Source: Bacteroidales bacterium
GTDB taxonomy: Bacteria > Bacteroidota > Bacteroidia > Bacteroidales > P3
Assembly: GCA_017530105.1 (NCBI GenBank)
Contig: JAFXMW010000137.1
Coordinates: 1-34,919, forward strand
DNA length: 34,919 nucleotides
Direction of reading: 5' to 3'
Position 1 is the stretch's first letter; every line of letters starts with the position of its first letter. The notes beneath the pieces are model-generated. The model had not been told where the DNA came from and made no database searches. It was given only the letters and a program-made list of their open reading frames with translations. Of this stretch, positions 4,646 through 25,700 are shown piece by piece. The position numbers and the translations under genes are program-made.

Positions 4646-4653
4646 ACACCGCC

Positions 4654-7262: not shown

Positions 7263-7299
7263 CACAAAGACATCTGAGAACTGCGTCCCGAAGGGACGC
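7203..7299. repeat. REP-like cluster of palindromes with GAA loops
   Basis: Two 17-bp palindromes with the same design lie 63 bp apart: TCACCTC-GAA-GAGGTGA (7203-7219) and GCGTCCC-GAA-GGGACGC (7283-7299). A third, weaker stem (CACGG at 7232-7236 with CCGTG near 7257-7261) lies between. A related CACC-CGAA-GGTG hairpin occurs near 11983-11994. The cluster contains the stop codon of the upstream glycosyltransferase. Confidence 0.6.
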
Positions 7300-7342
7300 G
7301 ACATGTATAGTACAGAACCCACCGAAAAAGACACTACACACA

Positions 7343-8125: not shown

Positions 8126-9207
8126 ATGTTCATCATGGTATCCACGTTGCGTTCCCAGTCGTAGAGGTCGGCCACACGCCGCCGCGCTGCGGCACCCATT
8201 TGGTCTCGAAGCTGCGGATTGTCGATAAAGCGTTCAATAGCTTCGGCGGCGGCCTCGGGATTGTCTTTGGGCACAATGAAACCTGTGACATTGTTGTCGA
8301 CCACCTCGCAGAACCCTGCGGCATCCGAGGTGACCACTGGACAAGCGCAGGACATTGCCTCGACGGCTACAACACCGAAGCTTTCCTCACGGCTCAGCGA
8401 CACAGACACGTCGAACTTGGCGTAGAGCGTGGGGAGCTCCTGATTAGGAATGTAGCCAAGGAAGTCGACAAGATGACGGATGCCGAGATCGTCACACAGG
8501 TTAATGAGCTGGTCGCGGTCAGGACCCGTGCCGGCAATGAGTAGGCGCATATCGGTCTGCGGATGATGCCGATGGACGAGGGCAAAAGCACGGATGAGGG
8601 TGTCGATACCATAGCAGAATTTAAGGGTCTTGACATTGCCGACAACAAAAGATGCCGGTTTATCGGTGGCAGGGAGAGGACAAAAACGCTGCATATCGAC
8701 ACCGAAGGGAGTGACAGAAATAGGTTTGGGCGTGTAAAGATTGGTCTCGCGAGCCATACAATGGCTGGTAGAAAGAATGTAGTCGGCCCTCTTGAGAGTG
8801 AAAGAGAGCAGGTGGCGGTAGAGGCTGCCCTGGCGCGGATAGCTATAGACATCGCTGCCCCACACCGACAGCACGTATGGGTGGAAGCCGGAGAGGGCTC
8901 CAATGAGGCCAAAGCTGCATGCATAGTGAGCATGCAGGAAGTCGGGACGGAAATCTTTTATTTGTTTGCGAAGCAGCCAGACCGCCTTGAGATAAACCAT
9001 CTTGTCGAGCAGACGTTGCGAAAGGGCTGCACTGTCGCGCAACACGAAGTCGCAACTGAACACCTTCACATGGGGCATACCTTTGTAAGGCGACAAGTCG
9101 CAGCGAAGCAGATTGAAAAGCAGAATCTCACATCCTCGCTGGCTAAGCGAGCGTACCCATCGGAGGGTGTGGATGCTGTCGGCGTCGGATAAAAGCAGTA
9201 CTTTCAT
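8101..9207 (-). CDS. glycosyltransferase family 4
   Basis: 368 aa GT-B enzyme. N-terminal acceptor lobe begins MKVLLLSDADSIHTLRWVRS and contains DFLHAHYACSFGLIGAL; the C-terminal nucleotide-sugar lobe has VGNVKTLKFCYGIDTLIRAF, LLIAGTGPDRDQL, LVDFLGYIPNQELPTLYAKF, and the family 4 donor motif E-E-S-F-G-V-V-A-V-E-A-M-S-C-A-C-P-V-V. All key residues of a retaining GT4 appear intact. It is the last gene of the minus operon that starts at 11961 and follows the other GT4 by 3 bp. It should act on the cytoplasmic face of the inner membrane on a lipid-linked glycan; donor unknown. Confidence 0.93.
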   Translation of the reverse strand: MKVLLLSDADSIHTLRWVRSLSQRGCEILLFNLLRCDLSPYKGMPHVKVFSCDFVLRDSAALSQRLLDKMVYLKAVWLLRKQIKDFRPDFLHAHYACSFGLIGALSGFHPYVLSVWGSDVYSYPRQGSLYRHLLSFTLKRADYILSTSHCMARETNLYTPKPISVTPFGVDMQRFCPLPATDKPASFVVGNVKTLKFCYGIDTLIRAFALVHRHHPQTDMRLLIAGTGPDRDQLINLCDDLGIRHLVDFLGYIPNQELPTLYAKFDVSVSLSREESFGVVAVEAMSCACPVVTSDAAGFCEVVDNNVTGFIVPKDNPEAAAEAIERFIDNPQLRDQMGAAARRRVADLYDWERNVDTMMNIYRRVISS

Positions 9208-9210
9208 ACT

Positions 9211-10437
9211 TCAATTCTCAATTCTCACGTAATCGATGAACTTTTGCGCCAGCGTGTGGTATTCGAGGTTTTCGAGGGCATATTTCCGACCCTTGGCACC
9301 CATGGCGGCACATTCGTCGGGGGACATGTCGGCTATCGTCCGTATGGCCTCGCGCACCTGGTCGACATTCTCGGCCTCCACCTGTATGCCACAGCCCACG
9401 CGCTCCGTCTCGCTGCCCGGCTCGTCAACCGACTTGACAATGGGTTTCCCTGCCAGCATATAATCAATCATCTTGTTGGCGGAAGTACCGTATTGGTGAA
9501 GGAAACTATGCACGCCGCCTTCGTAGCAGATATCAAACTGCTGTACAACATTGGGTATGCAGGTCTTCTCCACCGGTGGGAGGAAATAGAAGTCCTTGAG
9601 ACCATAGCTTTCCGCCAATTGTATCAGCTCTTCTTTCTGCGGACCGCTGCCCACCATGACGTATGCCAAATCATTGCGCTCTCTGAGTGCATTGGCCGCC
9701 TTGATGAGAACGTCCATGGCTGTCGACTGGGTATGTCCTCCGGCAAATCCGATGATGGTTTTACCCTCCTCGTGGAGCTTGGCAAAAAGGGCAGCATGCT
9801 CCTGCGGCAAAGAGCCATTCTCAGCATTATCCCACTCCTCTTTCAGATATCCGTTGGGCACACAGCAAAAACGGTCTTCCGTAAGCCCGTGACGCTTCAT
9901 GTGGGGAAAAGCCTTATCGAGCATCGAGACAACCATGTCGCAATGTTTGTAAGCATAGTTCTCGCAGTGCTGCAGCATGACAATGAACGGGTGCCATTTT
10001 TTGTACCCGCCAATAACCATCACCGACAGAGGCCACAAGTCATGCACCTCGTAGACCAGCTTGGCATGGGTGCGGCGGGCGATATAATGGCATGGGTATA
10101 TGTCGAAGGTGTATACCGACGAAGCAATGACCATGTCCGGCTGAAAGGCAATCAGCTCTTTGCTGTGTTTGTAAACCTGATGGCAGAACTGGAACATCGA
10201 GAGCACCCGTTTCCAACCGTTGCCCTCATATTCGACCGTGGGCAACCACAGATAGTCGATGCCCTCAAGACATTCCCGTCCCACCGGCGGCTGAGTTTTG
10301 CGAAGGTGCGAAAAGGAGGCTCCCACCACAGTCACCCGATGCCCCATGCCCACCCACTCGCGGGCAATATAATAGGAGCGATACTCCATGCCATATTGCG
10401 GCGCTCCGGCGTAGTGGCTTATCATCAAGATATTCAT
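9211..10437 (-). CDS. WbuB-like glycosyltransferase family 4
   Basis: 408 aa. The start MNILMISHYAGAPQYGMEYR and the following YYIAREWVGMGHRVTVVGAS are characteristic of the WbuB/Fnl group of GT4 enzymes, which add N-acetylated deoxy-amino sugars early in O-antigen synthesis. The donor lobe contains KTIIGFAGGHTQSTAMDVLI, AYVMVGSGPQKEELIQLA and ANKMIDYMLAGKPIVKSVDE. The start overlaps the stop of the PIG-L deacetylase by 4 bp (10434-10437), implying coupled translation. A donor such as the Wbp-pathway uronic acid, or an N-acetyl amino sugar, is plausible but not shown. Confidence 0.9.
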   Translation of the reverse strand: MNILMISHYAGAPQYGMEYRSYYIAREWVGMGHRVTVVGASFSHLRKTQPPVGRECLEGIDYLWLPTVEYEGNGWKRVLSMFQFCHQVYKHSKELIAFQPDMVIASSVYTFDIYPCHYIARRTHAKLVYEVHDLWPLSVMVIGGYKKWHPFIVMLQHCENYAYKHCDMVVSMLDKAFPHMKRHGLTEDRFCCVPNGYLKEEWDNAENGSLPQEHAALFAKLHEEGKTIIGFAGGHTQSTAMDVLIKAANALRERNDLAYVMVGSGPQKEELIQLAESYGLKDFYFLPPVEKTCIPNVVQQFDICYEGGVHSFLHQYGTSANKMIDYMLAGKPIVKSVDEPGSETERVGCGIQVEAENVDQVREAIRTIADMSPDECAAMGAKGRKYALENLEYHTLAQKFIDYVRIEN

Positions 10438-11063
10438 AGGAACAGTCTTATTACTTCAAACGACTCGGCATACTGGCAACCTACCTGCACACCGCGGGTA
10501 CGGGCCAGCGAGCGTACAAACTCAGCGGAGGTATAGTCGCGGAACTCCTGGCTTTTGTATTCCCGCAAGGCCTGGCATTTTGCCTCTATATGACGCTCCT
10601 CCAACTGGACGAAACAGTCTGTGTCGAACGTCAAATTGTTCCATATCAGCTCATATCCAAGCAAAGTGGTCTTCTTGAAAGCTCGTATCGCCTCTTGGGC
10701 CACGGTGGTATGGTCCTGGTGTATGTCGTGGGACGAAGGCATGAACACCAGGTCATAACGCCGTTCGTTGCGCAACTTCACCATGTCCTCCAGAAGCTCC
10801 TGCCTCACATAGTTCAGTTTGCGGACCTCATAATGGTAGATATACAGGTTCTCGGGAGGAATGCCCAGCTTGAGGGTTGCATTACGCACCTCTGTGGCAA
10901 GGATATCCTTCGGAAACCCCTCGGGAACCGACTGGTCGGCGGTGGAAAAGGCAGCGTAGAACACATTCTTCCCCTCCTCGATAAACTTACTGATCGTACC
11001 GCCTAAGCCCAATTCACCGTCGTCGGTATGCGGAGCCAATACGAGTATGTTCTCTATATTCAT
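10434..11063 (-). CDS. PIG-L/LmbE family N-acetyl sugar deacetylase
   Basis: 209 aa. The zinc site typical of carbohydrate esterase family 14 is visible: APHTDDGELG near residues 10-19 (variant of PHPDDE, with the catalytic Asp and zinc ligands kept) and SSHDIHQDH further on, giving the H-x-x-H ligand. Family members remove the N-acetyl group from amino sugars, free or nucleotide- or lipid-linked. The start MNIENILVLAPH was preferred over an upstream extension. The gene sits between an LpxD-like acyltransferase and a WbuB-like transferase, so deacetylation followed by a different N-acylation of a glycan residue is a reasonable inference; VimE of Porphyromonas is, from memory, the same type of enzyme. 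Confidence 0.88.
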   Translation of the reverse strand: MNIENILVLAPHTDDGELGLGGTISKFIEEGKNVFYAAFSTADQSVPEGFPKDILATEVRNATLKLGIPPENLYIYHYEVRKLNYVRQELLEDMVKLRNERRYDLVFMPSSHDIHQDHTTVAQEAIRAFKKTTLLGYELIWNNLTFDTDCFVQLEERHIEAKCQALREYKSQEFRDYTSAEFVRSLARTRGVQVGCQYAESFEVIRLFL

Positions 11064-11070
11064 GGTATTG

Positions 11071-11961
11071 CTATTTGTTTCTATTAATCTCTTTGGCTGG
11101 CACACCGGCCACAATGGTGTTGTCTTCTACATCTTTCAGCACCACAGCCCCAATGCCTGCAAATCCCCTGTATCCTATTGTCACTTTTTCTTTTACAGTC
11201 ACGTTGGGAGCCAGATAGCTCTGAGGCTTCAACACAGCCCCGCCGCAAACAATGGCCCCGACAGTAACCATGCTACCCTCGCCGATATGGCTGTTGTGGC
11301 CTATCTGCACCAAGTCGTCGATTTTCACATTGTCCCCGATAACCGTGCTGCCCAGCGTGGCGCGCTCCACCGTGGTGTTGCTGCCTATAAAGACATTGTT
11401 GCCCACCACCACATCGCCGAAATGCGGAAAATGCACAGGCTCCCCTTCTTCGTCACGCTCAAAACCGAAACCCTCCTGTCCCAACACCGCACCCGACTTA
11501 ATCTCACAGTGGTGACCCAGCACCACGCGGTTGTCAAGAACCACATGGGGATGAAGCACGCAGCCGTCGCCCACCACACACTGTGCCGACACATAGCATC
11601 CCGCGCCGACGTAGACATCCCGCCCGATGGAGGCACCCTGCTCGACAACTGCCGTAGGGTGAATGAACCCCTTTGGCCTCTCCTGTACAAAGAAATGGGA
11701 CAAAACCCTGATATAATCCAACCGGGGATTGTCCGAAACGATATAGCCGCACGTCAGCCTCCCCGCAAAGTCGCGCGGCACGATGGCCAGAACCTCATTG
11801 CAGCTGTTCAGGGCTCGAACCGACTCGTCGCTGTACCTCTTGGCGAAAACAACGCTGCGAGGCAGCGGAGCCGACAGCGGGGCAAAACGCTCAATGGTTG
11901 AGACCGCCCCATTCAACGTCGACCCCAGAAAACTGGCTATGTTATTTGATGTAATCTTCAT
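11071..11961 (-). CDS. LpxD-like left-handed beta-helix acyltransferase
   Basis: 296 aa. Residues about 1-95 resemble the uridine-binding N-terminal domain of LpxD (ISxFxG-like opening, then a PRLDYIRVLSHFF segment). From about residue 98 hexapeptide repeats dominate: HPTAVVEQGASIGRDVYVGA, GHHCEIKSGAVLGQEGFGFE, KIDDLVQIGHNSHIGEGSMV, closing with GVPAKEI. LpxD itself is about 340 aa; this protein is shorter and sits in a polysaccharide operon, so it more probably N-acylates a nucleotide sugar than makes lipid A. It might supply the 3-N-acetylation that the Wbp operon lacks (no WbpD there). First gene of the minus operon, promoter at 12200-12230. Confidence 0.85.
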   Translation of the reverse strand: MKITSNNIASFLGSTLNGAVSTIERFAPLSAPLPRSVVFAKRYSDESVRALNSCNEVLAIVPRDFAGRLTCGYIVSDNPRLDYIRVLSHFFVQERPKGFIHPTAVVEQGASIGRDVYVGAGCYVSAQCVVGDGCVLHPHVVLDNRVVLGHHCEIKSGAVLGQEGFGFERDEEGEPVHFPHFGDVVVGNNVFIGSNTTVERATLGSTVIGDNVKIDDLVQIGHNSHIGEGSMVTVGAIVCGGAVLKPQSYLAPNVTVKEKVTIGYRGFAGIGAVVLKDVEDNTIVAGVPAKEINRNK

Positions 11962-12199
11962 AATGTCTTATAGGTTAACCACCCGAAGGTGAAATATGTA
12001 ACCCCCTTGTCGGAAACTTCGTAGAATACGTATATCTTCTGATTTCATGTATCTATTGGGTATTTCAATTGCTGTTGTTTGTTGTTGGCATATCATCTTT
12101 TCGACTCTACGAATAATATGTTCTTTGGGGGTATTATTTTTCTTTACATCAGTTGTTTGTATTGTCCTGCTGCTCCTTTTTTTACCTTTCTGCACTTTG
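11962..12199 (-). other. long leader of the lpxD-like operon, with a doubtful small open frame
   Basis: About 230 nt separate the minus promoter from the start at 11961. A frame with start MICQQQTTAIEIPNRYMKSE ends in a TAA near 11968 (42 codons; up to 75 from a GTG at 12195). I do not recognise it, and its composition is that of AT-rich intergenic DNA. Near its end is a CACC-CGAA-GGTG hairpin related to the palindromes at 7203-7299, so a REP-like element rather than a gene is likely. Confidence 0.35.
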
Positions 12200-12230
12200 C
12201 AAAATTACAAAAAAAATCCCTTTTATACAA
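12200..12230 (-). promoter_or_regulatory. promoter of the minus glycan operon
   Basis: Minus strand: TTG (complement of 12228-12230), 20-nt spacer, TAATTTTG (complement of 12200-12207). It reads toward the LpxD-like gene and lies back to back with the promoter at 12240-12247. Confidence 0.7.
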
Positions 12231-12239
12231 AAAAAGTTG

Positions 12240-12247
12240 TATTTTTG
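12240..12247 (+). promoter_or_regulatory. -7 element for the WecA-like gene
   Basis: TATTTTTG (TAnnTTTG) 27 nt before the start at 12275. A good -33 TTG is not seen, since that area overlaps the divergent promoter. Confidence 0.55.
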
Positions 12248-12274
12248 CATCCTGAAAACAAACGCCAGGGGAAT

Positions 12275-13240
12275 ATGTTTTATATCGTTGCCACCATTGC
12301 AATCATCGCTTTCGAGCTGCTCTATTTTTCGGTAGCCAGGCGTTTCCATATCGTCGACCGCCCTAACGAGCGTAGCTCGCACCACCGCGTGGCCCTGCTG
12401 GGTGCGGGTATCGTTTTCTACTTCGCCGTGCTGTTCTACTCGCTGACACACGGCTTGGCATTCCATAATTTCCTCATCGCCATCACCGTCTTGGCGGTGG
12501 TGAGCTTTGTGGACGACCTACATCCATTGCCTTCTTGGCTGCGCCTTTTCACACAGATTGCCACAGTGCTCCTGACGTTCTGGACGGATATCTCGGCCAT
12601 TGCCCCGTGGCAGCTTGTGGTGCTGATTGTTTTCTTTACGGGTGTTCTCAATATTTACAATTTTATGGACGGCATCAACGGGATGCTTGCCGCTTACTCG
12701 TTTGTGGTGGTGGGCACTTTCGGCTATCTCGACCTCTTTGTACATCCGTTTGTTGATTTCGAGTTTATCGCTTCGGTCTTGGTGGCTATCGTGGTGTTCG
12801 GTTTTTTCAATTTTCGTACCAACGCGCGTTGTTTCGCTGGCGACGTGGGCAGCATCAGCATGGGGCTCATCGTCCTGTTCCTGCTGGTGCGCTATGTCAA
12901 CTCGTTCCCCGGCTCTGGCTTGAATGTGAGCCGTATTTGCTTTGTCATCGTGTTCCTGGCCGACGGGTTCCTGACTGTCGCCAAGCGGTTCCTTTCAGGA
13001 CGCAATATTTTTGCCGCCCACCGCGAGCACGCCTACGAAACGATGGTAAATGATTTGCATGTGCCTTATCTGGCGGTCTCGACGGGGTATGCCCTGCTGC
13101 AGCTGGCAATCAATATTGGCTATATCCTTGTGGAGGACAAGAACTTCTACACCATAGCCGTCGCCCTGATCCTGATTCTCGCTTACGGCTTGTTCTTTTT
13201 CTTCGGCAACCGCTCCGGCAAAATACACCCCATCCAATAA
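12275..13240 (+). CDS. WecA/MraY-family undecaprenyl-phosphate sugar-1-phosphate transferase
   Basis: 321 aa, about ten transmembrane helices. It starts lipid-linked glycan synthesis by moving a HexNAc-1-phosphate from UDP-sugar to undecaprenyl phosphate at the inner membrane. All family landmarks are present: VSFVDDLHPLP (DD at 80-81), NIYNFMDGINGM (129-137), the Mg-binding CFAGDVGS (GD at 189-190) and the C-terminal AHREHAYE (249-255), which defines the WecA/WbpL branch. The start MFYIVATIAI follows the promoter by 27 nt; the open frame upstream of it is promoter DNA. It is transcribed alone, divergent from the glycosyltransferase operon it would feed. A truncated relative lies at 2304-2527. 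Confidence 0.92.
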   Translation: MFYIVATIAIIAFELLYFSVARRFHIVDRPNERSSHHRVALLGAGIVFYFAVLFYSLTHGLAFHNFLIAITVLAVVSFVDDLHPLPSWLRLFTQIATVLLTFWTDISAIAPWQLVVLIVFFTGVLNIYNFMDGINGMLAAYSFVVVGTFGYLDLFVHPFVDFEFIASVLVAIVVFGFFNFRTNARCFAGDVGSISMGLIVLFLLVRYVNSFPGSGLNVSRICFVIVFLADGFLTVAKRFLSGRNIFAAHREHAYETMVNDLHVPYLAVSTGYALLQLAINIGYILVEDKNFYTIAVALILILAYGLFFFFGNRSGKIHPIQ

Positions 13241-13638: not shown

Positions 13639-13668
13639 TTGATGAACAAAAAAAAATGTGTATCTTTG
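13639..13668 (+). promoter_or_regulatory. wbp operon promoter
   Basis: TTG at 13639-13641, 19-nt spacer, TATCTTTG at 13661-13668: complete consensus. It would give a leader of about 70 nt before wbpA. Confidence 0.8.
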
Positions 13669-13675
13669 CAAATTA

Positions 13676-13743: not shown

Positions 13744-15018
13744 ATGCAAGAGATTAAAATTGCAGTCATTGGACTTGGATATGTCGGTCTGCCTTTGGCA
13801 AGACTTTTTTCCACTAAGTATAAGACAGTGGGGTACGATTTGAGCGAGGAGCGGGTGAGGGCTTTGATGGCGGGTCACGACGCCACGCTGGAGGTGAGCG
13901 ACGAGCTGCTGCAGGAGGCCATAAGGGAGCACGGTTTCGTCTGCTCGAGCAACCTGGAGGATATTCGCGACTGTAATTTCTATGTGGTGGCTGTGCCGAC
14001 CCCTGTGGACCGCAACAACAACCCCGATTTGACGCCGCTGTACGGCGCCAGCGAGGTGGTGGGCAAGGTAATCGCCAAGGGCGACACGGTGGTGTATGAG
14101 TCGACGGTGTACCCGGGCGTGACGGAGGACGAGTGTCTGCCCGTGGTGGAGCGGGTGTCGGGTCTGAAGTATAACGTGGATTTCTTTGCCGGTTATAGCC
14201 CGGAGCGCATCAACCCGGGTGACAAGGTCCACACGGTGGAGAAAATCAAGAAGATTACGTCGGGCTCCACTCCCGAGACTGCCGATTTGGTGGACGAGGT
14301 GTACCGTTCGGTGCTTATCAACGGCACGCACCGCGCCTCGAGCATCAAGGTAGCCGAGGCCGCCAAGGTGATTGAGAACAGCCAGCGGGATATCAATATC
14401 GCCTTTGTCAACGAGCTGTCGAAGATTTTCAACCTGATGGGTATCGACACTCAGGATGTGCTGGAGGCCGCGGGGACGAAGTGGAATTTCATCAAGATGA
14501 ACCCCGGCCTGGTGGGGGGCCACTGCATTTCGGTGGACCCGTACTATCTGGCTCAATGCGCACAGCGGCTGGGGTACAACCCCGAGATTATCCTTGCGGG
14601 ACGCAGGATGAACGACGGCATGGGTGCCTACGTGGCCGACCAAACGGTGAAGCTGATGTTGAAGAAGGGCATCCAGGTGCTGCACTCGAAGATTATCATC
14701 ATGGGCTTCACTTTCAAAGAGAACTGCCCCGACGTGCGCAACACCCGCGTGATTGACATTTTCCATTCGTTGCAGGAATACAATGTGGACATCACGGTGT
14801 TCGACCCGTGGGCATCGCCCGAGCGGGTGAAGCACGAGTACGGTATCGACATTGTGAACGAGCTGCCCAAGGAGAAGTTCAGCGCGGCCATCATTGCTGT
14901 TGCCCACCGCCAATTCAGGGAGATGGAGATTGATTTCGACCAACTGCTGGAGCCGAAGCACGTCATTTACGACGTGAAGGCCATCATGCCCCGCGAACTG
15001 GTGGACGGCCGTCTGTAA
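13744..15018 (+). CDS. wbpA: UDP-N-acetyl-D-glucosamine 6-dehydrogenase (WbpA/TviB type)
   Basis: 424 aa. Oxidises UDP-GlcNAc at C6 to UDP-GlcNAcA with two NAD+, the first step toward UDP-2,3-diacetamido uronic acids. Visible features: Rossmann motif IGLGYVGLPLA (residues 7-17), ESTVYPGVTEDECLP (about 119-133), GYSPERINPGD, the lysine-bearing KVIENSQRDINIAFVNELSK segment, the catalytic cysteine in GGHCISVDPYY (Cys261), and a C-terminal domain with GFTFKENCPDVRNTRVIDI. The length and these segments fit the WbpA/WecC/TviB group rather than UDP-glucose dehydrogenases. Neighbouring wbpB, wbpE and wbpI make the WbpA assignment more secure. First gene of the operon from the promoter at 13639; the next gene follows after 43 bp. 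Confidence 0.92.
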   Translation: MQEIKIAVIGLGYVGLPLARLFSTKYKTVGYDLSEERVRALMAGHDATLEVSDELLQEAIREHGFVCSSNLEDIRDCNFYVVAVPTPVDRNNNPDLTPLYGASEVVGKVIAKGDTVVYESTVYPGVTEDECLPVVERVSGLKYNVDFFAGYSPERINPGDKVHTVEKIKKITSGSTPETADLVDEVYRSVLINGTHRASSIKVAEAAKVIENSQRDINIAFVNELSKIFNLMGIDTQDVLEAAGTKWNFIKMNPGLVGGHCISVDPYYLAQCAQRLGYNPEIILAGRRMNDGMGAYVADQTVKLMLKKGIQVLHSKIIIMGFTFKENCPDVRNTRVIDIFHSLQEYNVDITVFDPWASPERVKHEYGIDIVNELPKEKFSAAIIAVAHRQFREMEIDFDQLLEPKHVIYDVKAIMPRELVDGRL

Positions 15019-15061
15019 TTGAATCAAGGAGTACCATTCTTCACTCATTAATCACCAAGTC

Positions 15062-16042
15062 ATGGCTAATTTTGCATTGATAGGTGCAGCCGGATACATT
15101 GCACCGCGACATCTGAAAGCTATCGCCGACACAGGCAACACCCTCCTGGCGGCATACGACAAGTTCGACAGCGTGGGGAGACTGGACAGTTTCTTCCCCG
15201 ACTGCTCGTTTTTCACCGAGCAGGAGCAGTTTGACCGTTTCTGCTCGAAACAACAATACACCAACCACCCGTTGCAATGGGTGTCGATTTGCACGCCCAA
15301 CTACACTCACGATGCCTTTATCCGCTATGGGCTGAGGCTGGGCTGCGACGTTATCTGCGAGAAGCCTCTTGTGCTGAACCCCTATAATATCGACAATCTG
15401 ATAGGCATGGAGGAGGAGACGGGTCATAAGGCTTACACCATTCTGCAACTGCGCCTGCACGACAGCATCGTGGCTTTGAAGAAGAAGGTGGACGAGGGTC
15501 CAAGGGACAAGGTGTATGACATCGACCTGACCTATATTACCTCGAGAGGGAAATGGTATTACTCGTCGTGGAAGGGCGATGTGCACAAGAGCGGCGGCGT
15601 GGCCACCAATATCGGGGTGCATTTCTACGATATGCTGCAATGGATTTTCGGACCCGTGGAAAAGAGTGTGGTTCACGTGATGTCGCACGACCGTGTGGCG
15701 GGGTATCTGGAACTGAAACAGGCACGGGTGCGCTATTTCTTGAGCATCAACGCCGACTGCCTGCCCGCCAACGCTGTGCAGGGCGAGAAGAGAACCTACC
15801 GCACCATCATGATTGACGGCGACGAGTTTGAATTCAGCCAGGGTTTCACCGAATTGCACACCAAGAGCTACCAGGAGATTCTGGCGGGACGCGGTTTTCG
15901 TATCAGCGAGGCGCGCAACTGCATCCAGATGGTGAGCGACATACGCCACTCCACCCCCATCGGGCTGAAGGGCGACTATCACCCTTTGGCACGACTGCCT
16001 TTGGCTCCCCACCCCTTTGGCTGGGACGATGTAAAAATTTGA
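15062..16042 (+). CDS. wbpB: UDP-GlcNAcA 3-dehydrogenase (WbpB/WlbA), Gfo/Idh/MocA family
   Basis: 326 aa, close to the usual 316. Oxidises C3 of UDP-GlcNAcA to the 3-keto sugar with bound NAD+, which family members regenerate by reducing 2-oxoglutarate to D-2-hydroxyglutarate. The N-terminal Rossmann opening NFALIGAAGYIAPRHLKAI is the hallmark of WbpB/WlbA. Also visible: WVSICTPNYTHDAFIRYGL, DVICEKPLVLNPYNIDNL (the conserved E-K-P), DLTYITSRGKWYYSSWKGD, and SGGVATNIGVHFYDMLQWIF with the catalytic-region N-x-G-x-H. Nothing appears missing. It sits between wbpA and wbpE, 10 bp before the latter, as in Pseudomonas B-band loci. Confidence 0.94.
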   Translation: MANFALIGAAGYIAPRHLKAIADTGNTLLAAYDKFDSVGRLDSFFPDCSFFTEQEQFDRFCSKQQYTNHPLQWVSICTPNYTHDAFIRYGLRLGCDVICEKPLVLNPYNIDNLIGMEEETGHKAYTILQLRLHDSIVALKKKVDEGPRDKVYDIDLTYITSRGKWYYSSWKGDVHKSGGVATNIGVHFYDMLQWIFGPVEKSVVHVMSHDRVAGYLELKQARVRYFLSINADCLPANAVQGEKRTYRTIMIDGDEFEFSQGFTELHTKSYQEILAGRGFRISEARNCIQMVSDIRHSTPIGLKGDYHPLARLPLAPHPFGWDDVKI

Positions 16043-16052
16043 GAATTGAAAT

Positions 16053-17246
16053 ATGGAATTCCGAGATTTAAAGAAACAGTACGCGGCTCTGAAAGAAGAT
16101 ATCGACCGGGCAATGACCGAGGTGGCTGCCTCGGGTGCTTTTATTATGGGGAACCCCGTGAGAGAGCTGGAACAGGAATTGGCCGAATATGTGGGGGTGA
16201 AACATTGCCTTGCCTGCGCCAACGGGACGGATGCCTTGACTTTGGCATTGAAAGCCCTGGGCGTGGGGAAGGGCGACGCGGTGTTTGTGCCCGATTTCAC
16301 TTTCTTCGCCAGCGCGGAAGTGGTGGCTTTGGAAGGTGCCACACCCGTCTTTGTAGACGTCGACCCCAAAACTTTCAACATCGACTGCAAAAGTCTGGAG
16401 GATGCCATCCGCTCGGTGCATGACCACATGACCCTGCGTCCCAAGGCTGTGATAGCCGTCGACCTTTTCGGGCAGCCGGCCGACTTTGCCTCGCTGAGGG
16501 GAATCACCAAGCGCGAAGGGATGTACCTGATAGAAGACGGTGCCCAGGGCTTTGGGGGCAGTGTGAAAATGCCCAAGGCCGGAGGCGACGGTTTCACTGT
16601 ACGACGTGCCTGCAGCTTTGGCGACATCTCCACCACCTCTTTCTTCCCCGCCAAACCCTTGGGATGCTATGGCGACGGGGGCGCGGTGTTTACCGACAAC
16701 GATGATTGGGCGGCCCTTATCGAATCCTACCGCGTCCACGGCAAGGGGAGTTATAAGTACGACAATGTCCGTATCGGTCTCAATTCACGCCTCGACACCC
16801 TGCAGGCCGCCATCCTGCGTGTGAAGCTGAAAGCTTTCAAGGAGCACGAGCTGGCCGATGTGAACAAAATAGCCGACTACTATACCCAGCTGATTGGCGG
16901 CATGACCCGTTTCATAAAAAAGGAAATCCTCATCACCCCGCCCTATGTGCCGGAAGGCTACACCAGCAGCTGGGCACAATACACCATCCAACTGAGCGTA
17001 CCCTCGGGCAACGGAACCTTCAACCGCGAGGTGCTGCAAGCCAAACTAAAAGCCAAGGGTATCCCCACCATGGTGTACTATCCCACCCCGATGAGCAAAC
17101 AGACCGCTTTCAAAGAAATGCACAGCTTTGCCCTAACCCCCCACGCTCTCGAGTTGTCGAAGAGTGTGCTTTCGCTGCCCATGCACCCTTACCTCACCCG
17201 CGAAGATGTCCGCACCGTGGCAGAGCAGCTGATTTATAGTATCTAA
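16053..17246 (+). CDS. wbpE: UDP-2-acetamido-3-oxo-uronate aminotransferase (WbpE), DegT/DnrJ/EryC1 family
   Basis: 397 aa PLP enzyme. It puts an amino group from L-glutamate on C3 of the 3-keto sugar made by WbpB, giving UDP-GlcNAc3NA and 2-oxoglutarate. Landmarks: FIMGNPVRELEQELAEYVGV at the N-terminus, CANGTDALTLAL, DFTFFASAEV, the PLP-ring Asp region YLIEDGAQGFGGS, and the Schiff-base lysine K201 in STTSFFPAKPLGCYGDGGA. The protein is longer than Pseudomonas WbpE (about 360 aa): there are extra residues after GGS (KMPKAGGDGFTVRRA) and near 300. In Porphyromonas gingivalis the equivalent aminotransferase (PorR) is needed for A-LPS and for anchoring T9SS cargo. Confidence 0.93.
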   Translation: MEFRDLKKQYAALKEDIDRAMTEVAASGAFIMGNPVRELEQELAEYVGVKHCLACANGTDALTLALKALGVGKGDAVFVPDFTFFASAEVVALEGATPVFVDVDPKTFNIDCKSLEDAIRSVHDHMTLRPKAVIAVDLFGQPADFASLRGITKREGMYLIEDGAQGFGGSVKMPKAGGDGFTVRRACSFGDISTTSFFPAKPLGCYGDGGAVFTDNDDWAALIESYRVHGKGSYKYDNVRIGLNSRLDTLQAAILRVKLKAFKEHELADVNKIADYYTQLIGGMTRFIKKEILITPPYVPEGYTSSWAQYTIQLSVPSGNGTFNREVLQAKLKAKGIPTMVYYPTPMSKQTAFKEMHSFALTPHALELSKSVLSLPMHPYLTREDVRTVAEQLIYSI

Positions 17247-17282
17247 CCTTCACCCCAAGAAAGGGCACAGGCTTCAACCATC

Positions 17283-18407
17283 ATGAAGATACTCACCATC
17301 ATAGGGGCACGTCCCCAAATCATCAAAGCCGCCGCCGTCAGCCGTGCGGTGAAGAACCTTTTCCCCTCACAGATTGAAGAGAAAATACTCCATACCGGCC
17401 AACACTACGACACCAATATGTCGCAGGTGTTCTTCGACGAACTGGGTATCCCCCAGCCCGACTACAACCTGGGCGTGGGCTCCGGCTCCCACGGCAGCCA
17501 GACCGCCCGCATGATCAGCGGTATCGAGGAGGTTCTGCTCAACAATCCTTTCGACGGCATCATCCTCTACGGCGACACCAACTCCACCCTTGCCGGTGCT
17601 GTGGCAGCTTCGAAGATACACATACCCGTGTTCCATATCGAAGCAGGCTTGCGTTCCTTCAACATGGCCATGCCCGAGGAGGTGAACCGCATCGTGTGCG
17701 ACCAACTCTCCAGCATCTGCTTCGCCCCTACGCAAACCGCTGTGGGCAATCTGCAACGCGAAGGATTTCTGGACAGTCCAGCCACCTTCCGCGACGGACG
17801 ACGACGAAGGGTGTGCAACTGCGGTGACGTCATGTACGACAACAGTATGTACTTTTCCACTCTTGCCCGTCAACACAGCACCATACTGCAAGACCTCGGG
17901 CTGCAACCCGGACAATACATCCTTGCCACCATCCACCGCGACAACAACACCGACGACCCCATGCGGCTGCACGCCATCCTGCACGCCCTTGCCGACATTG
18001 CCGAACACGACAACATCCGCATCGTCCTTCCCCTCCATCCCCGCACCCGCAAAATACTCAACGCCACCCCTGCCCTGCTCCCCGCCGACCAGTCGAAAAT
18101 AAGCATCATCCCCCCCGCCGGTTTCTTCGACATCAACATGCTTGAGCAAAACGCCCGCTTGGTCATGACCGATAGCGGGGGAGTGCAGAAAGAGGCCTTT
18201 TTCTTCGAGAAACCCTGCGTCATCCTGCGTCCCGAAACCGAGTGGGTGGAGATTGTCAACCACGGTGCCGGAATCATAGCCGACGCCGACTACGACCGCA
18301 TCATTACTGCCTACCGCCAACTGATTGACCACCCCGTCCACTTCCCGCACCTTTTCGGCGATGCCCATGCCGCCGAGAAAATCCTGCAAACCATTCTCGA
18401 TTATTAA
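17283..18407 (+). CDS. wbpI: UDP-2,3-diacetamido-2,3-dideoxyglucuronate 2-epimerase (WbpI)
   Basis: 374 aa, GT-B-fold non-hydrolysing epimerase of the WecB/WbpI family. It would invert C2 of UDP-GlcNAc(3NAc)A to the ManNAc(3NAc)A form. Conserved segments: KILTIIGARPQIIKAAAVSR at the N-terminus, GQHYDTNMSQVFFDELGIP, GIILYGDTNSTLAGAVAA, PVFHIEAGLRSFNMAMPEEV with NRIVCDQLS, TIHRDNNTD, and MTDSGGVQKEAFFFEKPCVI. Plain WecB would also fit the fold, but the G-A-R-P-Q-I-I-K-A-A opening and the wbpA-B-E context favour WbpI. An arginine-rich stretch (RDGRRRRV) lies mid-protein. Its presence predicts a manno-configured sugar, as in Tannerella rather than Porphyromonas. Confidence 0.9.
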   Translation: MKILTIIGARPQIIKAAAVSRAVKNLFPSQIEEKILHTGQHYDTNMSQVFFDELGIPQPDYNLGVGSGSHGSQTARMISGIEEVLLNNPFDGIILYGDTNSTLAGAVAASKIHIPVFHIEAGLRSFNMAMPEEVNRIVCDQLSSICFAPTQTAVGNLQREGFLDSPATFRDGRRRRVCNCGDVMYDNSMYFSTLARQHSTILQDLGLQPGQYILATIHRDNNTDDPMRLHAILHALADIAEHDNIRIVLPLHPRTRKILNATPALLPADQSKISIIPPAGFFDINMLEQNARLVMTDSGGVQKEAFFFEKPCVILRPETEWVEIVNHGAGIIADADYDRIITAYRQLIDHPVHFPHLFGDAHAAEKILQTILDY

Positions 18408-18416
18408 TCCCCCGCC

Positions 18417-21308
18417 ATGAACCTTCTCACCGACCCTCTGCACCGCATAGCCTACGCCACCGATGCCTCGGCCTATCGCGAAATACCCATGGCCGTGGCC
18501 TATCCCCATTCCGAGGACGAAATCAGAGAAATCATCGCCGAAGCACGGCGCAGACACACCCACCTCATACCCCGTGCCGGAGGCACCAGCATCGCCGGTC
18601 AAGTGGTGGGTAACGGTATTGTTGTCGACATCAGCCGACACCTCAACCACATCATCGAAATCAACGCCGCCGAACGCTGGGCTTGGGTTGAACCCGGCGT
18701 AGTGCGCGACGAACTCAATATCGCACTCAAGCCCCACGGCCTATTCTTCAGCCCCGAAACCTCCACCAGCAACCGCTGCTGTATCGGCGGCATGGTGGGC
18801 AACAATTCCTGCGGCACCCACTCCCTCATATATGGCAGCACACGCCACCATGTACTCGAAATCCGGGGACTGCTAAGCGACGGCACCCCGTTCTCCACAG
18901 CCAACCGACAAGGCAGCCCGCTGCTGGACAAAATCTATGCCCAACTCGAGCAATGGGCCAACGACCCCGCCACGCGTCAACTCATCAACGACAATTTCCC
19001 CGATCCGTCCCTCCGCCGTCGCAGTTGCGGATACGCTATCGACGAAGCCATCAACCCCTCCCTCAACGCCCTGCCCGGAAGCCCCGCCGCCCCACAAGGC
19101 ATAGACCTCTGTAAACTCATCTGCGGCAGCGAAGGCACCCTCTGCTTCATCACCGCAATAAAAGTATCCCTCGACCCACTGCCCCCCTCGCAACAGATGG
19201 TACTCTGTGCCCACTGCAATTCCCTTCCCAACAGCTACCTTGCCAACCTCGTGGCGCTGCGCCACAACCCCGTGGCCATAGAACTCATGGACGGCAAGAT
19301 CCTCGAACTTTGCCGCAACAACCGCACCCAAGACCGCAACCGTTTCTTCATCCAAGGCGAACCGGCAGCCCTTCTCATCTCCGAATTCTATGGCAGCGAT
19401 ATGGAATCCGACGCCGACGCTCTCGAAAAGGAACTCCTCGAGCAAGGCCTCGCCTACCATTGCAGCCGTGTCTACGGCAACGATATCAGCCGTGTATGGG
19501 CCTTGCGCAAAGCCGGACTTGGGGTACTCACTGGCGTGAAAGGCGACAACAAACCCATAGGTGTAATCGAGGACACCGCTGTAGCACCCGAAAGGCTGCC
19601 GCAATACCTCGACGATTTCCAACAGATGATGCAACGCCTCGGGCTGGAATGTGTCTACTACGGCCACATCAGCACCGGCGAACTCCACCTGCGCCCCATT
19701 CTCAATATCAAAGAACCTAAAGACCGGCAACTCTTCCGCCAAGTGGCCGAAGAAACCGCCCTGCTGGTGCGCAAACACCGCGGAAGCCTCAGCGGCGAAC
19801 ATGGCGACGGCCGTCTGCGCGGAGAATTCATCCCCCTGATGTACGGCGAAGAGGTTTACCAACTCATGCGCCAAGTGAAACAATGCTGGGACCCCGACGG
19901 AGTGTTCAACATGCACAAGATTGTCGATGCCCCGCCCATGGACCAATCGCTGCGCTACGACGTCAACCAGACCTACCTCTGTCCCGATCAGGACCTCATG
20001 TGCAGCATTGAGCAATGCAACGGCGCAGGCGACTGCCGCAAAAGCAATGCTATCGGGGGAACCCTCTGCCCCTCTTATAAAGTGTCGCACGACGAACTGC
20101 TCTCCACCCGTGCACGTGCCAATATCCTGCGCGAACTCCTCACCCGCGGCCTACCAGCCCAGTCAGACCTGTCTGACCAGTCTGACCAGTACAACAAGTC
20201 CTCCCACTCCCTAATCGAGGAAGTACTATACAGCTGCCTGGCCTGCAAAGGCTGCAAAGGCGAGTGCCCATCCAATGTCGACATGACACGCATCCGGGCC
20301 CAAGTGCTGCAAATGCTCTACGACCGCCACGGCACCCCGTTCCGCAGTTGGATGGTAGCCCGCATGGCCATGGTGGAGCGGCTCGGTCACCTTGTCCACC
20401 CCCTCTACAACTACCTCGCCTCAGCCCGCTGGTCATCCACCGTGATAAAAAAAATAGTCTCCTTTGCTCCCGAACGAGATATCCCTGCACTCTCGCCGCG
20501 CACCATGCGACAACTCGTCAACAAAGAAAGCACCAACAAAAAAACAACCAAGAAAGTCTATCTCTTTGCCGACGAATTCACCAACCTGCAGGAAGCCGAA
20601 CTGGGACTGACCTTTGTCCGACTGCTCACCGCATTGGGCTACCAAGTCATCGTCCCCAAACACCTGGAAAGCGGCCGTGCCGCCATATCCAAAGGTTGCC
20701 TGCATCTTGCCTCCCGTTTTGCCCGTCAGAACGTCAAAATGCTCCGCGACATCGTAAGCGACGAGACCCCCCTTGTGGGTATCGAACCCAGTTGCATACT
20801 CACATTCCGCGACGAATACCCCGATCTGGTGCCGTCCGACATGCGCGACGATACCACCCGTCTGGCTCAGAACTGCCTCCTCTACGACGAATTTATCATG
20901 CGCGAAGTGGCTCGCGGCAACATCCGCCCCGAACAATTCAGCACCGCCCAGGCCGACATCTGGCTGCACGGACATTGCCACCAGAAAGCACTTGTGGGCA
21001 TAGAGAAAACCGTCGCCATGCTCCACCTGCTGAAAGGCTGCCGCCTGCACGTCATACCCTCCAGCTGCTGCGGCATGGCAGGCTCATTCGGCTACGAAAA
21101 AGAGCACTACCAGACCTCTCTGGACATAGGCGAGATGCTCCTCTTCCCCACCGTGCGCAAAGCCGTGAAAGACGCTGAACAGCAGGCATCACAAATCCCG
21201 GCAATAGTAGCCGCTCCCGGCACATCATGCCGCCAACAAATCCTCGACGGCACAGGCATCCATGCCGTCCACCCCATAGAAATCATGTACCGCTGGCTGG
21301 CACGCTAA
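18417..21308 (+). CDS. FAD/4Fe-4S 2-hydroxyacid dehydrogenase, YdiJ/D-2-hydroxyglutarate dehydrogenase-like
   Basis: 963 aa. Domains in order: PCMH-type FAD-binding half (about 25-230; PRAGGTSIAGQVVGNGIVVD, SNRCCIGGMVGNNSCGTHS), FAD-linked oxidase C-terminal half (to about 500; GSLSGEHGDGRLRGEF near 455-470), a ferredoxin-like region with cysteines in CSIEQCNGAGDCRKSNAIGG (about 524) and CLACKGCKGECPSNVDM (about 604), then a CCG/heterodisulfide-reductase-like domain (GHCHQKAL; SSCCGMAGSFGYEKEHYQTS near 881). YdiJ of E. coli (about 1018 aa) has this layout and is reported to oxidise D-2-hydroxyglutarate; D-lactate and glycolate dehydrogenases are the alternatives. It starts 9 bp after wbpI and ends the operon at a strong terminator. 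The cluster motifs are separated by an odd S/D/Q linker encoded by a short tandem repeat (20158-20190). Confidence 0.88.
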   Translation: MNLLTDPLHRIAYATDASAYREIPMAVAYPHSEDEIREIIAEARRRHTHLIPRAGGTSIAGQVVGNGIVVDISRHLNHIIEINAAERWAWVEPGVVRDELNIALKPHGLFFSPETSTSNRCCIGGMVGNNSCGTHSLIYGSTRHHVLEIRGLLSDGTPFSTANRQGSPLLDKIYAQLEQWANDPATRQLINDNFPDPSLRRRSCGYAIDEAINPSLNALPGSPAAPQGIDLCKLICGSEGTLCFITAIKVSLDPLPPSQQMVLCAHCNSLPNSYLANLVALRHNPVAIELMDGKILELCRNNRTQDRNRFFIQGEPAALLISEFYGSDMESDADALEKELLEQGLAYHCSRVYGNDISRVWALRKAGLGVLTGVKGDNKPIGVIEDTAVAPERLPQYLDDFQQMMQRLGLECVYYGHISTGELHLRPILNIKEPKDRQLFRQVAEETALLVRKHRGSLSGEHGDGRLRGEFIPLMYGEEVYQLMRQVKQCWDPDGVFNMHKIVDAPPMDQSLRYDVNQTYLCPDQDLMCSIEQCNGAGDCRKSNAIGGTLCPSYKVSHDELLSTRARANILRELLTRGLPAQSDLSDQSDQYNKSSHSLIEEVLYSCLACKGCKGECPSNVDMTRIRAQVLQMLYDRHGTPFRSWMVARMAMVERLGHLVHPLYNYLASARWSSTVIKKIVSFAPERDIPALSPRTMRQLVNKESTNKKTTKKVYLFADEFTNLQEAELGLTFVRLLTALGYQVIVPKHLESGRAAISKGCLHLASRFARQNVKMLRDIVSDETPLVGIEPSCILTFRDEYPDLVPSDMRDDTTRLAQNCLLYDEFIMREVARGNIRPEQFSTAQADIWLHGHCHQKALVGIEKTVAMLHLLKGCRLHVIPSSCCGMAGSFGYEKEHYQTSLDIGEMLLFPTVRKAVKDAEQQASQIPAIVAAPGTSCRQQILDGTGIHAVHPIEIMYRWLAR

Positions 21309-21327: not shown

Positions 21328-21355
21328 AAAGCCCCGGCCTGACGGTCGGGGCTTT
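21328..21355. terminator. bidirectional terminator between the wbp operon and rpmE2
   Basis: AAAGCCCCG (21328-21336) and CGGGGCTTT (21347-21355) form a 9-bp GC-rich stem with A-rich and T-rich flanks, so it can work in both directions for the convergent genes. Confidence 0.85.
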
Positions 21356-21821: not shown

Positions 21822-22283
21822 CTAAGGCAGACGGTAATTCATCCTGCGATGCTCGGCCAACTGCTCATATTTCGTCCCCGGCCGGCCATAGTTGGCATAA
21901 GGATGTATGGCTATGCCTCCACGGGGGGTGAAGAGCCCCGTCACCTCGAGGTAGCGCGGATCCATCAACTTCACCAAATCTTTCATTATCGTGTTCACAC
22001 AATCCTCGTGGAAATCGCCGTGGTTGCGGAACGAGAACAAATATAGTTTCAGACTCTTGCTTTCCACCATCTTACGGTCGGGAATGTACAAAATGCGTAT
22101 TTCGGCAAAATCCGGTTGCCCGGTGATGGGACACAACGTTGTGAACTCCGGGCACAGAAACTCCACCCAATAGTCATGGTCGGCGTGAAGGTTCTCAAAA
22201 GCCTCCAACACCTCGGGGGCGTAATCCGTCTGATACTTTACCTCATGCCCCAATTGCTGCAGATTGTCGTTTCTTCTATCCAT
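21822..22283 (-). CDS. queF: NADPH-dependent 7-cyano-7-deazaguanine reductase (preQ0 to preQ1)
   Basis: 153 aa, the short YkvM-like form. Reduces preQ0 to preQ1 in queuosine biosynthesis in the cytoplasm. Visible motifs: [18 protein letters not shown] with the catalytic Cys (thioimide former) and the Asp of GQPD, the NADPH-binding segment [20 protein letters not shown], and a [20 protein letters not shown] end. The first 30 residues contain the family's conserved substrate-side segment. The mRNA begins with a preQ1-I riboswitch (22452-22486), an independent confirmation of function; about 165 nt of leader separate the aptamer from the start codon at 22283. Confidence 0.96.
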
Positions 22284-22721: not shown

Positions 22722-25700
22722 TTAGCGAACAATCAGTTTCTTGACCATGTTGACGCTGTCGCCGGTGATGCGTACGAAGTAGGCACCCTGGGCGAGGTTG
22801 TCGACATCCATCGTCTTGGCACAGTCGCTGTTGCACTCGAGGGTCTCGGTGGCAACGGTGCGGCCGTTCATGTCGACGACGGCAATCTTAACCTTTCCGT
22901 TCACTCCGCTCACAGTGATGGTGGTGGAGTTGCTGGTCGGGTTGGGATAGATGGTGCAGGTGGCTGATGTGACATCGTCGATGCCTTCACCCTGAGTGCG
23001 GAAGTTGGCAGTGACGTAGGCGCTGTAGTTGCCGTCGCCACAGTCGGTGCGGACACTGACGGTGTAGTTGGTGCGGCGGGTGAGGCCGGTGAGGTTGGCA
23101 CGCGGTTCGCTGACAGTGGCATCGCTGACGGTGCTACCGTTGGGATCGCTCACCACTACCTGCCAACGGTCGCCGGTGGCGCCGGGTGTCCAGGTGACGG
23201 TGGCAGAGGTCTCAGTAATCTCAGTCACGTTGAGGCTGGTGACAGGATCGCAGTCCTCGGAGGGTTGCTCGCCGGTGGTGAAGGTGGCCACGATGCTCCA
23301 GGCACTGTAGGTGTTCTGGTCGCAGAGAGCGCGGACGTAGACATCGTACTGGGTCTCGTAGTCGAGGTTGTTGATGACTGCGGGCGAGGTGGTGGCGCTG
23401 ACAACGGTACCGGCGTTGTGGCTGAAGCCGTGAGGACCATACTCAAGCTCGTAGCTGATGTTGCCCTCGCCGGGAGTCCAGTTGACGGTGACGCTGTTGT
23501 CGGCCACGGTGGTGGTTACACCGGTGGGTGCCAGGCAGGTGACACCGCCGCTGAGGGTGGTGGCGCTGACGTTGACCCAGTTCTCGCTCAACCAGTTGGT
23601 GCCGCAGACGGCTTTGACGTAGAAGTCGTAGTCGGTTTCGTCTTCAAGACCGTTGAACACATAGCTGTTGGTGGCAGTGTTGACCTGAGTGCCAGTACCC
23701 TGGTCGAAACCATAGTAGCCGTATTCGATTACCCAGCCCTGAGCCATCGGGTCGGCAGTCCAGTTGAGGGTAATGCTGTTGGCTGTGATGTTGCCGGCAG
23801 TGAGTCCGGTGACATTGGGGCAGACGGCAGTGGAGAAGGTCACAGTGTCGCTCCAGTCGCCTTCGAGCAGGTCGACACCGCAGAGGGCGCGGACAGAGGC
23901 GTTGTAGGTGACACCGGCGATGAAGCCGCCAACGGTGGCAGGACGTGTGGTGACGCGGTAGACGCTGTCGAAGCCGGCAAACCAGACGTGGATGTCCCAA
24001 GCGGTTTCGGTGCCGTTGACATTCCAGTCGAAGGTGGCGGTGGCGTTGGTGGCGGCGATAGCGTGGAGGCTGTCGGGAGTGAGGCAGGGCAGGCTGTCGG
24101 TGAGGAAGCCGCCGAGAACCCACTCGCTATAGCCGAGGCTGTCGGCGTTGCAGTCCTGACGTACACGGAAGGTGTAGTTGGTGGCGGGTTGCAGTCCGGT
24201 GAAGGTGTAGGTGTTGCCAGTGACAGTGATGTCGTTGGCAGGCCAGTTGGGGGCTGCCGAAGGCTTGATGTTGACTTCGTAGTTGGTGCCAGTGCCAACC
24301 CAAGTGACGGTAGCGGAGTGGTAGTCGTTGGTTACAGAGGCGATGGAAGGTTGACGACAAGCCGAGCTGCCGCAGCTGATGAGGCGGTAGATGGGTACGG
24401 TAGAGGTGGCAGTACCGCCGGAGATGGAGCCAATAGTGTAGGGGGTGCCGTCACGATAGATGTAGCGTGCTTTGCTGGAAGAGGCATTGAAGGCATCGAA
24501 ATAGCCGCTGCTGGTCCAGCCGCCGTGGCGACGGTCGATAGCGACTACGATATTGCTGTGGCCATCCCAAGTGAAGACGGTGTCGAACATGATGTACTGC
24601 CAGTCGTTGGTGGTGTAGCTGAGGTCGCCGGTGAATACTTTCACAAAAGTGGCGGTGTCTTGGATAAAGTCGCCGCTAAGGTCGGTGAGAGAGGTGTGGG
24701 CCAGATAGATTGTGCAATTGGTGAAGTATGTGCCACCAGTTGTGTTCTGCGGTTTGAATGCCCAGGCTGTGATGTCGGTTAAGCCGTCGAGGTCGGCACT
24801 GTCCATAATGACCTCGGTGTAGCTGTATTCATATGTGGCATAACCGGGGAAGTAGGAGGTGGACTCGGTGCAGACGGTGGCGTTGGTAATTTCGACAGCA
24901 TTTTCGCACATGGCTGTGGAGAATACAACACCATCGCTGAAAAGACTGCTGTCGCTACCGCAAAGTTTCTGTACCCATGCAACATAGGTTGTCAAGGGGC
25001 TCAGACCGGTGAGGGTAATGCTGTTGGTGTTGGTGTTGACGAATTGGTTGGTGCTTGCCGGTTCGCCTTGCACACGATATGCAACACGGTATTGTGCAGA
25101 GGCGGATCCGTTCCATGTGAGGGTGGCAGAGGTGCTGCCGATAGAAGCCTCGTTGACGGCCATATTGACAGGACGCGGGCAGGAACTGTAATCAATGTGG
25201 ATGTCGTCGACAATGGCGGGGCCGAATACCCAGTCGTAGCTGTTGCCGGTGTTCTGGTTGAACCAGAAGAAAGCGACACGCTTGACACCGTGAATGGTGT
25301 CGAGGACGGAATGGGCAAGAGTCCAGGTGGTGTCGAGACGTACATTGACAATGCGGTAGAGGTCGTTGACATTGCCCCAAGGCGAGGTGATGTTGGAGTT
25401 GGAGGCAACGACGGGGACGCTGGGATCGACCAGGAAGACCATCAAGCCATCGTAACGGTTGGAAACGGTGGCACCGCATTTGTATCGGAAGGTGATGTCG
25501 AAGGTGGTGTCAATAGTGCCGAAGTCGATGTCGCGCCATACAGCGGTATTCACAACAGCAGTCATGTTAGTGCCGAAGGTGGCACCGTTGTCGGGTGAGA
25601 CATACATGGAGTAGTTGCCGTCGTAGGCAGGCACAGCGTTGCCACGGAACCAGTTGACCGTGGTGTTGCTGTTGGTTTGCCAGTTGGCCCATTCGGTGCT

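Follow-up and report, generated by a model that had tools for sequence, protein, structure and literature searches.

One of the closest described counterparts of the locus considered here is found in Pseudomonas aeruginosa PAO1, where WbpB, in an NADH-dependent reaction demonstrated for this enzyme, reduces 2-oxoglutarate to D-2-hydroxyglutarate, and a D-2-hydroxyglutarate dehydrogenase (D2HGDH), PA0317, clears the product; deletion of PA0317 results in less O-antigen, and D-2-hydroxyglutarate inhibits WbpB (PMC8651671). The chemistry behind the original prediction for our locus, that WbpB makes D-2-hydroxyglutarate, is already in print for P. aeruginosa, physiological coupling included. In the available part of the same source, the genes most often found beside d2hgdh are GntR, ETF, SerA, CdaR, LldP, and GlcF, and WbpB is not named (PMC8651671). 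A second point of reference is YdiJ of Escherichia coli and Pantoea ananatis, which combines FAD, Fe-S, and GlpC-like parts on one chain, as does the enzyme discussed below; the E. coli protein is reported to be strict for D-2-hydroxyglutarate and to serve SerA, and the word stem "Bacteroid" is absent from the text of that paper (PMC9504171). HglS (DUF1338, PF07063), an enzyme of lysine/2-oxoadipate catabolism, is likewise a producer of D-2-hydroxyglutarate, from 2-oxoadipate and O2, although this is oxygen-dependent catabolism and not sugar synthesis (PMC7286885). Within the Bacteroidota, Porphyromonas gingivalis makes its A-LPS sugar with homologues of WbpA, WbpB, WbpE (PorR), and WbpD; wbpB and porR mutants lack A-LPS, and both A-LPS formation and the retention of secreted proteases at the cell surface depend on the pathway (PMC4031482). 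Its wbp genes, however, are scattered and, as far as the accessible portion of that report goes, include no wbpI, and no D2HGDH is mentioned there (PMC4031482).

Our window, that is, the whole 34,919-nucleotide stretch of DNA analyzed, comes from contig C133 of a 2.75-Mb Bacteroidales metagenome-assembled genome (G000; 82.7% complete). As first read from the letters of the sequence, it carries wbpA-wbpB-wbpE-wbpI (13744-18407) and, after a 9-bp gap, a gene for a 963-aa FAD/Fe-S protein (18417-21308), and the ORF list places all five on the + strand (Table 1). We label this last gene Y. Successive intergenic gaps along the five-gene run (13744-21308) are 43, 10, 36, and 9 bp, the last being that between wbpI and Y (18408-18416). 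Against an expectation of 4.07, the window has 17 copies of the motif TANNTTTGC, which we take to represent the Bacteroidota -7 promoter box, a count equalled in 0 of 100 shuffles. The hairpin after Y lies in a 76-nt stretch with a folding energy of -24.6 kcal/mol (z -3.9), and none of 200 shuffles was as stable. Most likely, then, wbpA-wbpB-wbpE-wbpI-Y would be read as a single transcript.

Table 1. Features of the wbp-Y locus and its upstream neighbors, in window coordinates
Feature	Position	Strand	Remarks
Glycosyltransferase	9211..10437	-	Homologues within the wbp-Y cluster in several relatives
PIG-L deacetylase	10434..11114	-	Homologues within the wbp-Y cluster in several relatives
295-aa hexapeptide acyltransferase, weak WbpD candidate	11071..11961	-	Solved relatives led by LpxD
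Putative Bacteroidota-type -7 box (TATCTTTGC)	13661..13669	+	74 bp 5' of wbpA
wbpA/tviB-like UDP-N-acetylglucosamine 6-dehydrogenase	13744..15018	+	Three UDPG_MGDP_dh domains
wbpB, UDP-GlcNAcA 3-dehydrogenase	15062..16042	+	Best solved match 3oa2 "WbpB", E=2.8e-111
wbpE/porR-type PLP aminotransferase	16053..17246	+	DegT, 322.6 bits
wbpI, UDP-2,3-diacetamido-glucuronate 2-epimerase	17283..18407	+	8sxv, E=5.4e-109
Y, 963-aa YdiJ-like FAD/4Fe-4S/CCG enzyme, proposed D-2-hydroxyglutarate dehydrogenase	18417..21308	+	Domains, active-site residues, linkage, tree
Terminator-like hairpin, 12 pairs	21328..21355	+	Directly 3' of Y; short, weak U run

The surroundings are those of a surface-polysaccharide region, which extends upstream over 3365-13240 and encodes a Wzy/ligase-like protein, a Wzx-type flippase, glycosyltransferases, a PIG-L deacetylase, a hexapeptide acyltransferase, and a WecA-like transferase. 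The region is flanked by genes for seryl-tRNA synthetase (195-1610, +), QueF (21822-22283, -), and HSP90 (32092-33999, +). Downstream of the operon, a 2823-aa protein (22722-31193, -) combines a PF18962 secretion-system C-terminal sorting domain with 11 fibronectin type III stretches; surface retention of cargo of this type in P. gingivalis is reported to require the Wbp sugar pathway (PMC4031482).

Homologues of WbpA, WbpB, WbpE, and WbpI are all present, which places the operon in the Wbp pathway to UDP-ManNAc(3NAc)A. WbpA is assigned at the family level only, with a score of 551.3 bits against the NCBIfam TviB model, below its cut-off of 592, and the other three have been matched to solved enzymes. 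Aligned with 3oa2, presumably the P. aeruginosa WbpB, the window protein is identical at 176 of 307 residues (57%). WbpE matches 3nu7 "WbpE" (E=6.9e-91) and, slightly more closely, the aminotransferase 4qgr (1.6e-96); WbpE releases 2-oxoglutarate from glutamate. For WbpI, the next kind of epimerase, 4neq, is weaker at 1.6e-79 than 8sxv. The solved enzymes nearest to WbpB and WbpI catalyze exactly these pathway steps. At 57% identity to the P. aeruginosa enzyme, the window WbpB most likely also reduces 2-oxoglutarate to D-2-hydroxyglutarate. There is no clear wbpD N-acetyltransferase gene within the operon. The 295-aa hexapeptide protein upstream matches LpxD (1.2e-29) well ahead of 3mqg (2.9e-13), which we take to be WlbB-type; its homologue sits between wbpE and wbpI in several relatives (e.g., L064), a position that refers to the 295-aa protein.

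From these assignments we propose that the five genes would make a 2,3-diamino-uronic sugar nucleotide by the UDP-ManNAc(3NAc)A pathway and dispose of its by-product, a reading to which we give a probability of roughly 0.8. WbpB would oxidize UDP-GlcNAcA at C3 and pass the electrons to 2-oxoglutarate, yielding D-2-hydroxyglutarate, and WbpE would aminate the 3-keto sugar with glutamate, yielding 2-oxoglutarate; by these 2 steps, therefore, each sugar would turn one glutamate into one D-2-hydroxyglutarate. Without recycling, the cost per sugar would be one glutamate carbon skeleton, and the accumulating D-2-hydroxyglutarate would inhibit WbpB. Y would close the cycle by oxidizing D-2-hydroxyglutarate back to 2-oxoglutarate through its FAD, its electrons leaving by the Fe-S/CCG half to an acceptor, perhaps a quinone. 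The resemblance to P. aeruginosa PAO1 lies in the proposed clearance of a WbpB by-product by a D2HGDH. The arrangement differs in that PA0317 lies far from the P. aeruginosa wbpB, presumably PA3158, whereas Y adjoins the wbp genes. The enzymes differ as well: to our knowledge, PA0317 lacks an Fe-S/GlpC-like half. PA0317 is described as an FAD/Zn enzyme (PMC12756731), and Y is FAD/Fe-S.

The domain content of Y (FAD_binding_4, FAD-oxidase_C, Fer4_8, and a GlpC-like C-terminal half) bears out the "YdiJ layout" of the original prediction, with the FAD, Fe-S, and GlpC-like parts on one chain. The likeness stops short of equivalence, however, since Y is only 31% identical to E. coli YdiJ and, where the YdiJ equivalog model NF049975 has a cut-off of 1350 bits, reaches 578.8; three relatives score 570.0, 658.9, and 663.7 bits. 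The cysteines C534/540/551, C607/610/613/617, and C884/C885 are invariant in all 24 aligned rows, E. coli YdiJ among them. One genome of the genus (G049; L163:8897-11874) encodes the FAD and Fe-S halves of Y in 2 separate genes, with a 4-bp overlap at the junction; the alignment and tree cover Y rows longer than 850 aa, so that L141, L163, and L164, for example, are omitted as split or partial.

Residues R386, H434, H441, E475, and H476 (human D2HGDH numbers) are common to D-2-HGDH, D-LDH, and GlcD, in which they bind the metal, the hydroxyl, and the C1 carboxylate (PMC7801405); all 86 Bacteroidales rows conserve them, as does E. coli YdiJ. This conservation of 2-hydroxyacid and metal-binding residues in every row speaks against the idea that Y is a second oxidase acting on the sugar itself, in the manner of DprE1 or a sugar-lactone oxidase. 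Such a role could be entertained from weak DprE1 and sugar-lactone-oxidase matches and from the position of Y in a sugar operon, but Y homologues located beside HglS genes are away from wbp genes, and we regard it as very improbable. A different 2-hydroxyacid, such as D-lactate, glycolate, or D-malate, deserves more thought, the pairing with WbpB then being unrelated to its by-product. Of the solved relatives of Y, a glycolate oxidase and D-lactate dehydrogenases match its sequence best and human D2HGDH less well, and the D2HGDHs of some other bacteria and of man are reported to accept D-malate as well (PMC9504171). However, the position equivalent to human N443, the C5-carboxylate residue, is hydrophobic in GlcD and D-LDH (PMC7801405) and is Arg in Y, as in E. 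coli YdiJ; of the 86 Bacteroidales rows, 84 have Arg there and the other two Lys. Y thus shares with E. coli YdiJ both this Arg and the catalytic and metal residues. Moreover, Y is linked to 2 unrelated D-2-hydroxyglutarate producers, and another 2-hydroxyacid as the substrate is accordingly quite unlikely. K401 and T390 of human D2HGDH are conserved neither in Y nor in YdiJ; Lys 379 of Y, shared by all 24 aligned rows, YdiJ among them, may stand in for K401. D-2-hydroxyglutarate is, on these residues, most likely what Y acts on.

If Y serves the Wbp pathway, it should keep company with wbpB in other genomes, and a survey of wbpB neighborhoods had been proposed at the outset, with absence of linkage from every related genome counting against the idea. 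Linkage recurs. In the genus sample of 59 genomes (G000-G058), Y is present in 26 and wbpB in 54. Y lies inside the wbp cluster in 24 of the 26 Y-bearing genomes, and in 23 it shares a contig with wbpB at a distance of 10 kb or less. In G051, Y is 20 bp after wbpI on one contig, and the contig with wbpB stops inside that gene; in G003 and G011, Y and wbpB are on separate contigs. At the thresholds used, Y is absent from 28 of the 54 wbpB-bearing genomes, and thus it is dispensable for the pathway.

Among the 80 wbpB loci obtained by contig search from 441 relatives, 42 contain Y, in every case on the same strand as wbpB. Distances here run between match ends and not gene ends. Y follows wbpI in 29 of the 42 (28 at 128 bp or less, and one, L068, overlapping by 4 bp). 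It stands directly upstream of wbpB in another nine, ending 5-89 bp before it in L088, L094, L095, L099, L100, L103, L111, and L119 and about 340 bp before it in L127, where the Y match is in 2 pieces. In L109, L113, and L131, Y is about 5.8 kb upstream, and L079 has yet another order. Genus genomes add wbpB-wbpE-glycosyltransferase-Y (L160-L163 and, more loosely, L159) and Y directly after wbpE (L008). Another genus of the same family has wbpB, one intervening gene, and Y (the B-x-Y order; L173 and L174), and the one-contig genome G232 has wbpI-wbpB-Y (L175) plus a second, unlinked Y. In all, each of the 50 loci with both genes has Y and wbpB in the same orientation, these loci being related to one another. 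The recurrence of linkage, the several orders, and the shared orientation lead us to reject the view of Y and the wbp genes as chance neighbors.

Beyond close relatives, the association is mostly one of co-occurrence. The order sample (198 genomes) has 111 genomes with both genes, 21 with Y only, 14 with wbpB only, and 52 with neither; Y and wbpB are within 10 kb of each other in 4 of the 111 (G000, G134, G223, and G232), many genomes being in short contigs. In the phylum sample (148 genomes, many likewise in short contigs), 25 have both, and the genes are linked only in the window's own genome and in 0 of the 24 others; co-occurrence there gives odds of 4.9 (p=7.5e-5). With 40 one-per-family genomes in genome-size strata, co-occurrence has p=0.00025 when weak Y matches above E 1e-100 are scored as absent and partial wbpB matches as present. 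The counts and both statistics ignore kinship between genomes.

How often the pairing arose was judged from a Y tree built by a quick search with SH-aLRT support only. Fifty rows form one clade, here the W clade, which contains 47 of the 50 linked rows. L175 falls outside it and, with support 100, is sister to the second, unlinked Y of the same genome, G232. In a reduced tree, built with thinned genus rows and without E. coli YdiJ, L158, and the three W-clade rows that lack linkage, the B-x-Y rows join the main clade with support 36, and a single clade of all linked rows is rejected only at p-AU 0.021. An earlier AU test, on a tree that also omitted E. coli YdiJ and L158 and had thinned genus rows, returned a p-AU of 1.8e-8, inflated by the three unlinked W-clade rows; for both tests, the group tested was named after the tree was seen. 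The notion of three independent linkages is thus only partly upheld: given the support of 36 and the p-AU of 0.021, two origins are simplest and three are not established. The simplest reading is that the wbp-Y pairing arose at least twice. The three W-clade Y genes without linkage to wbpB are those of G238, which adjoins polysaccharide genes 48 kb from wbpB, of G003, which adjoins galactokinase and aldose epimerase genes, and of G011.

Unlinked Y genes also bear on substrate. The locus set L133-L188 holds 46 Y loci, 9 wbp-linked and 37 unlinked. In seven of the 37 (L133, L137, L140, L148, L184, L187, and L188), all from other Bacteroidales, Y is preceded on its own strand by an HglS-type gene (PF07063), which directly adjoins it in five; in L187 and L184, one or two ORFs intervene. 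HglS was identified by Pfam in L133 and by clustering plus motif in the other six, four of the seven being found by a PF07063 search as well. All seven homologues have the H-x3-R motif and the later His and Glu whose roles are described for HglS (PMC7286885). HglS is present in 7 of the 40 one-per-family genomes; each of these has Y as well, and in 4 the two genes are adjacent. A profile search finds PF07063 in none of the 59 genus genomes. Since the same subfamily pairs with HglS in these other lineages, the D-2-hydroxyglutarate module may swap partners with the source of its metabolite. A further set of loci (L134, L142, L143, L144, L145, L176, and L186) has Y divergent from a phosphotransacylase/acetate-kinase-family cluster, annotated on L134 and assigned to the other six by clustering; some of these also hold a 3-hydroxyacyl-CoA dehydrogenase.

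A D-2-hydroxyglutarate dehydrogenase could still work mainly for some other source, for example a SerA-type enzyme, with its place among the wbp genes being positional only. E. coli YdiJ offers the precedent noted above, the source genome has PGDH-like genes (best TIGR01327 score 250.3 bits, against a cut-off of 454), and Y occurs without wbpB in 21 of the 132 Y-bearing genomes of the order sample. Nevertheless, no PGDH/SerA homologue was found in the 88 Y loci, whose flanks vary in length and in some cases stop at contig ends, by a search that does recover control PGDH loci. Moreover, the several wbp-Y gene orders, most simply with at least two origins, speak against a purely positional association. 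We therefore consider service to another source unlikely and retain recycling of the WbpB by-product as the probable function of Y in this operon.

The destination of the electrons is where the original prediction fares less well. It held that Y both clears the by-product and passes the electrons of sugar oxidation to the respiratory chain; the active site, the linkage to wbpB, and the linkage to HglS give good support to the recycling of D-2-hydroxyglutarate, but the respiratory chain is another matter. Cytochrome bd, the only oxidase in the search, was found in 0 of 37 genus genomes. The source genome (83% complete) yields a sole FrdA-like match, a 527-aa protein about as long as NadB. There is also a UbiA-family enzyme, for which the best model is a menaquinone prenyltransferase, at 98 bits against a cut-off of 264, which leaves quinone synthesis uncertain. 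Searches for FrdA, cytochrome bd, and UbiA thus yield no clear electron acceptor for Y. Because bd is absent from 37 of 37 genomes, the FrdA match is NadB-sized, and the UbiA match is under its cut-off, aerobic respiration through cytochrome bd is unlikely in this genus, and the claim of electron flow from sugar oxidation to the respiratory chain goes unsupported. A quinone-linked anaerobic route for the electrons of Y is possible.

The original prediction further knew of no description of the pairing as one operon. Among the matches listed, we found no report in the open-access literature of wbpB and Y as an operon, and a description elsewhere is possible; the metabolic coupling as such has been published for P. 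aeruginosa (PMC8651671). What is new here is the genetic form of a known coupling, an operon, in another enzyme subfamily and another phylum. A wider picture, to which we give about even odds, is that a YdiJ-like subfamily was recruited beside wbpB, most simply at least twice, in anaerobic Bacteroidales as a dedicated disposal arm, with D-2-hydroxyglutarate as a soluble electron shuttle that would carry electrons from WbpB-bound NADH to an anaerobic membrane or Fe-S acceptor, and that, paired elsewhere with HglS, it would constitute a partner-swapping D-2-hydroxyglutarate module. Independently of what is known from P. aeruginosa, the linkage provides genetic evidence that clearance of D-2-hydroxyglutarate belongs to the sugar pathway, and it adds to the YdiJ-type enzymes of the Gammaproteobacteria a distinct subfamily in the Bacteroidota whose substrate can be predicted. 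Two questions become testable as a result: what becomes of the electrons in a genus that lacks cytochrome bd, and whether D-2-hydroxyglutarate limits surface-sugar synthesis in anaerobes.
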